DNA of 64,000 bases, taken from NCBI GenBank assembly GCA_002707155.1, contig PAME01000001.1:155601-219600 (forward strand). The letters run 5' to 3'. The position numbers were made by a program, and so were the translations under genes. The DNA comes from Crocinitomicaceae bacterium (GTDB lineage: Bacteria; Bacteroidota; Bacteroidia; Flavobacteriales_G; Salibacteraceae). Of this stretch, positions 16,796 to 60,055 are shown piece by piece. The number at the start of each line of letters is the position of its first letter. The first letter of the stretch is position 1. The notes under the pieces are model-generated. The model was given only the letters and a program-made list of their open reading frames with translations. It was not told the origin of the DNA and searched no databases.

Positions 16796-16822
16796 GAGAT
16801 GCTGAAATAAATTCAGCATGAC
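16796..16822 (-). repeat. Short GTCAT/ATCTC palindromic repeat, 27 bp
   Basis: On the minus strand GTCATGCTGAA-TTTAT-TTCAGCATCTC: arms of nine pairs with asymmetric ends. It is the minimal form of the repeat family found also at 31534, 35374 and 59772. Confidence 0.75.
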
Positions 16823-16887
16823 GACTGCTATATTATTTGTGACGGTTTATCTGCTGCACATTTGGCTTCCCCGAATGAGTTCTGGCA

Positions 16888-35265: not shown

Positions 35266-35373
35266 GATAATTGTGTTTCAATAAATTTTGAGGCTGCAAA
35301 AATAACAAGCTGGCTTCGTGTTTAGTGATCGTTCTGAATTTATTTCACTTGCTTTTAATTGCATTTTGGACCA

Positions 35374-35400
35374 GAGATTCTTAAATAAATTCAGAATGAC
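35374..35400 (-). repeat. Short GTCAT/ATCTC palindromic repeat, 27 bp
   Basis: On the minus strand GTCATTCTGAA-TTTAT-TTAAGAATCTC, the minimal family form. A partial copy (GTTCTGAATTTATTTCA) follows about 40 bp to the left. Confidence 0.7.
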
Positions 35401-35456
35401 TGGTTTTAAGAATAGCACCCGAAATTCTATTCGCTTCTTTCTCTCCAATGCCTGAT

Positions 35457-35524
35457 GTTATTCCGCAGGATTTGTTAAACAGATTTAGGAACTAAATCGT
35501 TGAGAAACTTCTATGTGGTATCTC
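35457..35524 (+). repeat. Long GTCAT/ATCTC repeat with hairpin core
   Basis: Begins GTTATTCCGCA, ends TGTGGTATCTC; the arms CCGCA / TGTGG pair with one G-U. The core is a perfect hairpin GATTTAG-GAA-CTAAATC. About 68 bp. Confidence 0.65.
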
Positions 35525-35555
35525 ACTACTAATTAGAATAGTCTATGTTAATAGA

Positions 35556-35624
35556 GAGATTCCGTATAGCTAATTCACACTAACCGCCAATGGCGATTAG
35601 GTTCATTTACGCATACGGAATGAC
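35556..35624 (-). repeat. Long GTCAT/ATCTC repeat with hairpin core
   Basis: On the minus strand it begins GTCATTCCGTAT and ends ATACGGAATCTC, with perfect six-base arms CCGTAT / ATACGG. The core is TAATCGCC-ATT-GGCGGTTA. Inverted with respect to the copy at 35457. Confidence 0.75.
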
Positions 35625-35693
35625 GCGGTGCTTAAGACTGGGTGGCACGGGAATAATGCCATTTGTATAAAGCTTTTCTGTTAAAAAAACAAA

Positions 35694-42403: not shown

Positions 42404-42429
42404 GTTGATTAGATTGGTTGGATTGGTTA

Positions 42430-42502
42430 GTCATGCTGAAAGCTTAATTGAACACACGAATGCGTTTGTCGTTCGTGTAGTGAAATAGCTGTTCAGTATC
42501 TC
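42430..42502 (+). repeat. Long GTCAT/ATCTC repeat with hairpin core
   Basis: Begins GTCATGCTGAA, ends TTCAGTATCTC; five-base arms CTGAA / TTCAG. The core is ACACGAA...TTCGTGT, a seven-base perfect stem. It shares AGCTTAATTGAAC and GTGAAATAGCTGTTCAG with the copy at 59819-59886. It lies before the RND operon terminator, so it is part of that mRNA. Confidence 0.8.
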
Positions 42503-42516
42503 ACAAAAAACAGTAA

Positions 42517-42550
42517 CCCCCGAATCGCAAAACTGATTCGAGGTTTTTTG
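42517..42550 (+). terminator. Terminator of the tetR-tolC-MFP-RND operon
   Basis: CCCCGAATC ... GATTCGAGG stem (one mismatch) with an 8-nt loop, then a T run. Confidence 0.85.
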
Positions 42551-59730: not shown

Positions 59731-59771
59731 CTTGCAGTTGGCAAAAAAATTTGTTTTCGCAAATTCTTTAA

Positions 59772-59798
59772 GTCATGCTGAATTTAGTTAAGCATCTC
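59772..59798 (+). repeat. Short GTCAT/ATCTC palindromic repeat, 27 bp
   Basis: GTCATGCTGAA-TTTAG-TTAAGCATCTC. It differs from the 16796 copy by two bases. Confidence 0.75.
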
Positions 59799-59818
59799 TG
59801 CCATTTCCAAATAAGTAG

Positions 59819-59886
59819 GAGATGCTGAACAGCTATTTCACAGCTCAAGCTTTGCTTTTCGGGTTCAATTAAGCTTCCAGAATGAC
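59819..59886 (-). repeat. Long GTCAT/ATCTC repeat
   Basis: On the minus strand it begins GTCATTCTGGAAGC and ends GCTGTTCAGCATCTC. Long shared segments with the copy at 42430: AGCTTAATTGAAC and GTGAAATAGCTGTTCAG. The core differs and is AAGC-AAA-GCTT based. Confidence 0.75.
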
Positions 59887-60055
59887 ACTCGGTAATGCTT
59901 CGGTAATTTTTAGAATCTGCGTTTTCCACAAGACTCACAGGCAACATTTCTTTACAAGACGCTGCGTTATAACTACTCACTGTTTATAAAATCCGAAACT
60001 TCTAAAAAGTAGCCTTAAGGCTTTCAGCATCTTTGTTTGTCACAAACAATTCACT

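Follow-up and report, generated by a model that had tools for sequence, protein, structure and literature searches.

The palindromes of the window (the whole stretch of 64,000 nucleotides that was analysed) belong to a genome-wide intergenic family of long hairpins with covarying arms and a CGTC-type tag, which are often joined into dimers. Some copies have been inherited vertically, others are present in one species and missing in its sister, and at one fixed site the interior of a hairpin has been replaced. We consider it probable that this is a REP-like, non-autonomous family moved in trans, and that its complete unit is a dimer, asymmetric and about 150–200 bp long. A RAYT is probably not the enzyme that spreads it.

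The hairpins of the window are listed in Table 1, with scores of a covariance model (R1) built from the four long copies. The four palindromes of the preliminary description (starting at 35457, 35556, 42430 and 59819) are all present and, when oriented alike, share the frame described for them, with GTCAT or GTTAT at the start and ATCTC at the end. Each has an orientation: 35457 and 42430 read on the plus strand, and 35556 and 59819 on the minus strand. The arm sequences were as quoted, CTGGA/TTCAG containing one G-T wobble. The motifs TTGAAC and GTGAAATAGCT, given as common to all four, are exact only in 42430 and 59819; 35556 carries the variants ATGAAC/GTGAATTAGCT and 35457 the variants TTAAAC/GAGAAACTTCT. 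The cores had been called exchanged and unrelated: the exchange stands (see below), but simple unrelatedness does not, as the hairpins across the genus are mainly of two types (I and II). Compared with shuffles, and folded as either DNA or RNA, two window copies were far better, 35457 was weakly better and 59819 was no better.

Table 1. Hairpins of the family, and a neighboring terminator-like hairpin, in the window.
Feature	Position	Strand	Score or remark
Long hairpin, type II, single	42428..42504	+	R1 81 bits
Long hairpin, type I, left half of tail-to-tail dimer	35455..35526	+	R1 73 bits; type by motif
Long hairpin, type II, right half of 35455/35554 dimer	35554..35626	-	R1 76.7 bits
Long hairpin, type II, partly decayed	59817..59888	-	R1 69.7 bits
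Short CGTC-type hairpin	59770..59800	+	R1 15.3 bits, arms only; frame GTCATGCTGAA...ATCTC shared
Short CGTC-type hairpin, same intergenic gap as 35455/35554 dimer	35372..35402	-	R1 13.9 bits
Short CGTC-type hairpin CGTCATGCTGAATTTATTTCAGCATCTC	16796..16824	-	DNA fold z = -6.6
Terminator-like hairpin with T run, just past 42428 copy	42518..42550	+	

Read from the outside inward, a long hairpin (68–78 nt) opens with an unpaired (C)GTC head and the bases AT. Six pairs of variable sequence come next, and beyond a 1-nt bulge there is a second helix, three to four pairs long. A 2-nt bulge separates this helix from three more pairs, after which GA stands opposite GA in tandem. Inside GA/GA lie two pairs and a variable core, usually itself a hairpin, and the stem is followed by a CTC or CTA tail. 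The head is CGTC or TGTC in most copies, with AGTC/GGTC and GTTAT variants also occurring, and the outer stem has the consensus AT-N-CYGNA, its first two positions being complementary (A-U in 23 of 25 copies and U-A in 24 of 24). The covarying stem is longer than first described, with the second helix AGCTTAATT/AAATAGCT extending it up to the tandem GA/GA mismatch, and covarying pairs stand on both sides of that mismatch. When the 17-pair stem was written from the four-copy alignment, 91% of its cells paired versus 29–54% with the partner slid by 1–3 columns. Changes on both sides were seen at six stem pairs among the four window copies. In 25 copies of the same genome, aligned by fitting to the covariance model (alignment A3), there were 60 double-changed cells, spread over 12 of the 17 pairs, versus 23 in shuffles and 4–13 in slid controls; for 44 distinct copies taken from retrieved stretches, the figures were 123 versus 46 and 9–35, respectively. 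The arms covary strongly, changing so that the hairpin is kept, and the proposed selection on the folded form is supported.

The tandem G·A/A·G mismatch, absent from the preliminary description, is nearly invariant (21 of 25 own copies and 36 of 45 others). Since sheared G·A pairs are possible on one strand only, the element would have a sense strand. Two known structures were considered and rejected by reasoning. A k-turn requires a 3-nt bulge adjoining the G·A pairs, and here helices flank GA/GA on both sides with no such bulge adjacent; integron attC sites carry GTTRRRY/RYYYAAC core sites, and the ends of this repeat have none.

The host genome (G000; 3.04 Mb in 26 contigs) contains many more copies. 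Apart from the four on which it was built, R1 recovered at least 20 further places at E < 0.01, at least 19 of the new places falling below 1e-3 and the best reaching E = 1.2e-11. With R2, a second model made from alignment A3, at least 26 copies were found at E < 1e-3, plus weak ones at the positions expected for dimer partners. In these searches 150 candidates were scored, so the counts are lower bounds. Of the relatives, G001 has 9 copies, G002 19, G003 24 and G005 22. The copies are not few and their arms do not change independently, and both outcomes favor a family of the kind that the preliminary description had proposed. The expected intergenic bias was also observed, all 26 own copies checked lying outside credible genes (11 between convergent, 10 between tandem and 5 between divergent genes). 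Moreover, exact short CGTC hairpins occur 26 times in the genome, one of them at 16796..16824, as opposed to none for a reversed-pattern control. They share head, foot and tail with the long hairpins, and the long 59817 copy faces the short hairpin 59770 tail to tail with 16 bp between them as a short-long dimer, so the short and long forms appear to be one system.

The frequent unit of the family is a heterodimer in which two different hairpin types are joined tail to tail, with the CGTC heads outward. The inner arm is ...GAAACTTCT in type I and ...GTGAAATAGCT in type II. In the window, 35455 (I) and 35554 (II) are the halves of one such dimer, 27 bp apart, and in G005, which belongs to another genus of the same family, most copies are paired 8–10 bp apart with tails inward. 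Among 22 pairs from G000, G002, G003 and G005, typed by short motifs and with related pairs not independent, 16 were I/II, three ambiguous, two II/II (two near-identical pairs of G003) and one I/I.

Comparison of orthologous places indicates both inheritance and turnover. The 59817 copy has aligned orthologues in G001 and G002. The 35455/35554 dimer, which has a class II tRNA synthetase gene on one side and a TetR gene on the other, is missing at the orthologous gap of both genomes (about 90 bp in G001), which is the presence/absence difference between sister species anticipated earlier. The genus has therefore seen gain or loss of some copies, and others predate the split of some of its species. 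Elsewhere, dimers of G070 and G063 have no counterpart at the corresponding sites in G063/G061 and in G067, respectively. No base-precise empty site was found for a bare dimer, including in the comparisons of G000 copies with relatives, because the intergenic DNA has diverged. Most copies in G000 look old and inactive, and the spread looks more recent in relatives. Insertion into pre-existing palindromes, suggested by two empty sites, was rejected as a general rule by a flank test: complementarity of the flanks of 61 dimers averaged 7.5, compared to 7.4 between unrelated flanks.

Outside the genus, a pattern scan of 84,980 genomes (at least 118 stretches), together with model R2, recovered this dimer frame from rumen Bacteroidales and, in a divergent form, from Moraniibacteriota and others. 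Another 296 genomes of the phylum gave no match under strict filters with 16 candidates per genome scored, a result that implies rarity of the exact type rather than its absence. One unit of 162 bp is found repeatedly in rumen genomes with up to 97% identity, and the 97%-identical dimers at different sites could reflect conversion. The rumen relatives also bear out the exchange of cores, as the interior of the hairpin, stem and core together, has been replaced at a fixed site. At an orthologous site, the right hairpin of locus L214 differs from that of L160/L219 in its inner stem and core; head, foot and GA/GA are unchanged, as are the flanks and most of the left hairpin. At L186 and L205, with orthologous flanks, the left hairpin is of a different type, and between L286/L182 and L288/L109 the foot has undergone a compensatory change from CCGC/GCGG to CCGT/ACGG at an orthologous site. 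Small inserts were seen as well. Those of 21–25 bp (GGCTACGCCGAGCTAAAGGTA, TTACTTCGTGAGGTTGCAAGCAACG) lie inside the foot of one hairpin (L109 around 6255; L173, L184, L160), are found in one species and are missing from the orthologue or relative. Two similar inserts of about 72 bp share one position within the left hairpin but belong to different loci (L134 3155–3226; L219 about 480–555).

The following mechanism is suggested by these patterns. The arms would covary because recognition by a trans-acting enzyme requires the DNA, single-stranded or extruded, to fold into the hairpin. Copies may convert one another, which would account for cores and inner stems changing as a block, and the homology for such conversion would be supplied by the shared head, foot and tail. 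A bolder proposal, put forward only tentatively, is that an undescribed and widespread mobility system, neither RAYT nor DDE, uses the heterodimers as its two-ended substrate. It would extend from Bacteroidota to the tiny genomes of Patescibacteria and take head (CGTC), foot and tandem G·A as its signals, and its substrates would diversify by interior swaps.

The mobilizer might instead be a Y1 (HUH) transposase, as the preliminary description had suggested by analogy with REP/TnpA-REP. The copies would then be REP/REPIN elements moved in trans by a RAYT whose gene has since been lost from this genome. As head-tagged, oriented, dimeric intergenic hairpins, they do resemble REPs, the family carriers G002, G003 and G005 have Y1 genes, and subclass 2.6 TnpA-Y1/RAYTs of Bacteroidetes are reported to adjoin 'atypical secondary structures' (PMC6006769). 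However, no PF01797 gene was detected in G000 by a search that was positive in control genomes, and none of the Y1 genes examined in genomes carrying the family was convincingly flanked by copies. None of 24 Y1 loci of the bacterial family had a copy nearby, and 30 loci of other carriers gave only three weak matches, the best of 30.9 bits and about 1 kb off. On either side of the RAYTs inspected in G005, G003, G006 and G009 are GC-rich inverted repeats, for example CCACGCGATGCAATCGCGCGGGAGCGG, that are unrelated to these hairpins, and the tag of the present family is CGTC, not GTAG. With no Y1 gene in G000, none of those examined elsewhere convincingly flanked and at least some of the relatives' RAYTs accompanied by other REPs, a RAYT is an unlikely mobilizer. 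RAYT loci with the GC-rich REPs CCACGCGATGCAATCGCGCGGGAGCGG or similar are L083 1233–2018, L084 1240–2027, L088 1365–2025 and L090 1120–1886. A search of the retrieved stretches for any gene family recurring beside the copies turned up nothing but host genes of ordinary kinds and spurious ORFs that span the repeats themselves.

Several rumen dimers lie within two MITE frames (L141 4243–4489; L164, L105, L126, L195, L200, L282–L284), the inverted ends of the two MITE families being CTATATACAAGTTGAC and TATTGTTGTCCGCTAAA, and two dimers of G005 have AGAATAATGTG and CACATTATTCT-like sequences at their sides. The only sharp empty site is that of a larger MITE carrying a dimer: a sister genome lacks it, and about eight T-rich, low-complexity bases are duplicated at the ends of the MITE. 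This site was read off the printed sequences, as automatic alignment placed the gap poorly. The dimer might accordingly be a passenger, or the palindromic inside, of MITEs of a DDE transposon with terminal inverted repeats and target duplications. As a general explanation this is quite unlikely: most dimers have no frame and the complementarity of their flanks is that of unrelated ones, the frames vary by lineage while the dimer stays constant, and the window copies show no visible frame.

The position of the 42428 copy would suit a function in RNA. It starts 25 bp past the stop codon of an RND efflux gene (ACR_tran) and is followed by the terminator-like hairpin, so that it would sit in the 3' UTR of the RND operon mRNA, in agreement with the placement first proposed for it. 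It is inherited and common to another species: the G003 orthologue is at the same place with about five differences in 73 nt, all within the core region, giving an identity of about 93% versus 82% for the neighboring pump gene. Moreover, G-U pairs exceed A-C mismatches in the own copies (20 versus 8). That the hairpins at large are kept as cis-acting 3' UTR stabilizers or regulators, their covariation stemming from RNA function, is nevertheless very unlikely, since copies between tandem genes are oriented both along transcription (six) and against it (four), one half of a dimer is antisense on any transcript, the 35455/35554 copies are missing at the same genes in sister species, 45 other copies have 17 G-U pairs versus 13 A-C mismatches, and no Rfam match was obtained. 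As to the surroundings of this copy, the terminator-like hairpin is kept in G003 with the stem letters changed matchingly on both arms. The RND and bPH genes, close neighbors in the window, are separated in G003 by about 4.3 kb (L059 2340–6660), in which a Fic-domain-like gene and one for a possible T9SS-sorted protein are accompanied by two near-identical dimers.

For the REP-like, trans-mobilized family favored here, the closest known system is the CGTC-tagged REP superfamily (Di Nocera et al., 2013; PMC3733652), whose repeats span many phyla. Because its internal motif is defined, its two ends are distinct and its gains and losses can be dated, the long form provides a concrete substrate for an enzyme search; it also documents how entire hairpin interiors are swapped in nature with pairing preserved.

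MITEs are likewise short and non-autonomous, and the dimer has inverted ends (CGTCATTCCG...CGGAATGACG), but its long internal hairpins covary and there is no clear target duplication at the dimer ends. The 'atypical' structures of TnpA-Y1 subclass 2.6 are reported to be non-canonical hairpins of Bacteroidetes as well, with copies throughout the genome (PMC6006769), whereas the inspected RAYT genes of the present bacterial family carry GC-rich REPs that do not resemble these hairpins; this comparison is by description only. REP/REPIN elements with RAYTs, as in E. coli and Pseudomonas, share the oriented hairpins, the inverted dimers and the presumed action in trans on single-stranded hairpins. 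In contrast, the head here is (C)GTC and not a GTAG/GTGG guide at the 5' foot, and the Y1 gene is missing from G000 and elsewhere not convincingly flanked by copies. Members of the CGTC superfamily are intergenic, commonly dimeric and reported in Bacteroidetes; they have an unpaired head of CGTC, or TGTC or CCTC, at one end, stems of 8–9 bp, loops of 4–5 nt, a tail that is mostly CCA with others allowed, and no known associated transposase (PMC3733652). The present hairpins have the same unpaired CGTC/TGTC head, AT stem start, short tail, intergenic setting, dimers and lack of a transposase. They differ in the length of the long form (68–78 nt), its inner helix, tandem GA/GA and variable core, in the CTC/CTA tail and in dimers that usually join two hairpin types. 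The 26 short copies fall within the stem and loop sizes of the superfamily, and the 17-pair bulged long form lies outside them, so the latter is called a long, two-ended variant and not an ordinary CGTC member. Overall, by its head, AT start, dimer habit and absence of a transposase, the family belongs with the CGTC superfamily, and it behaves like a REP family.
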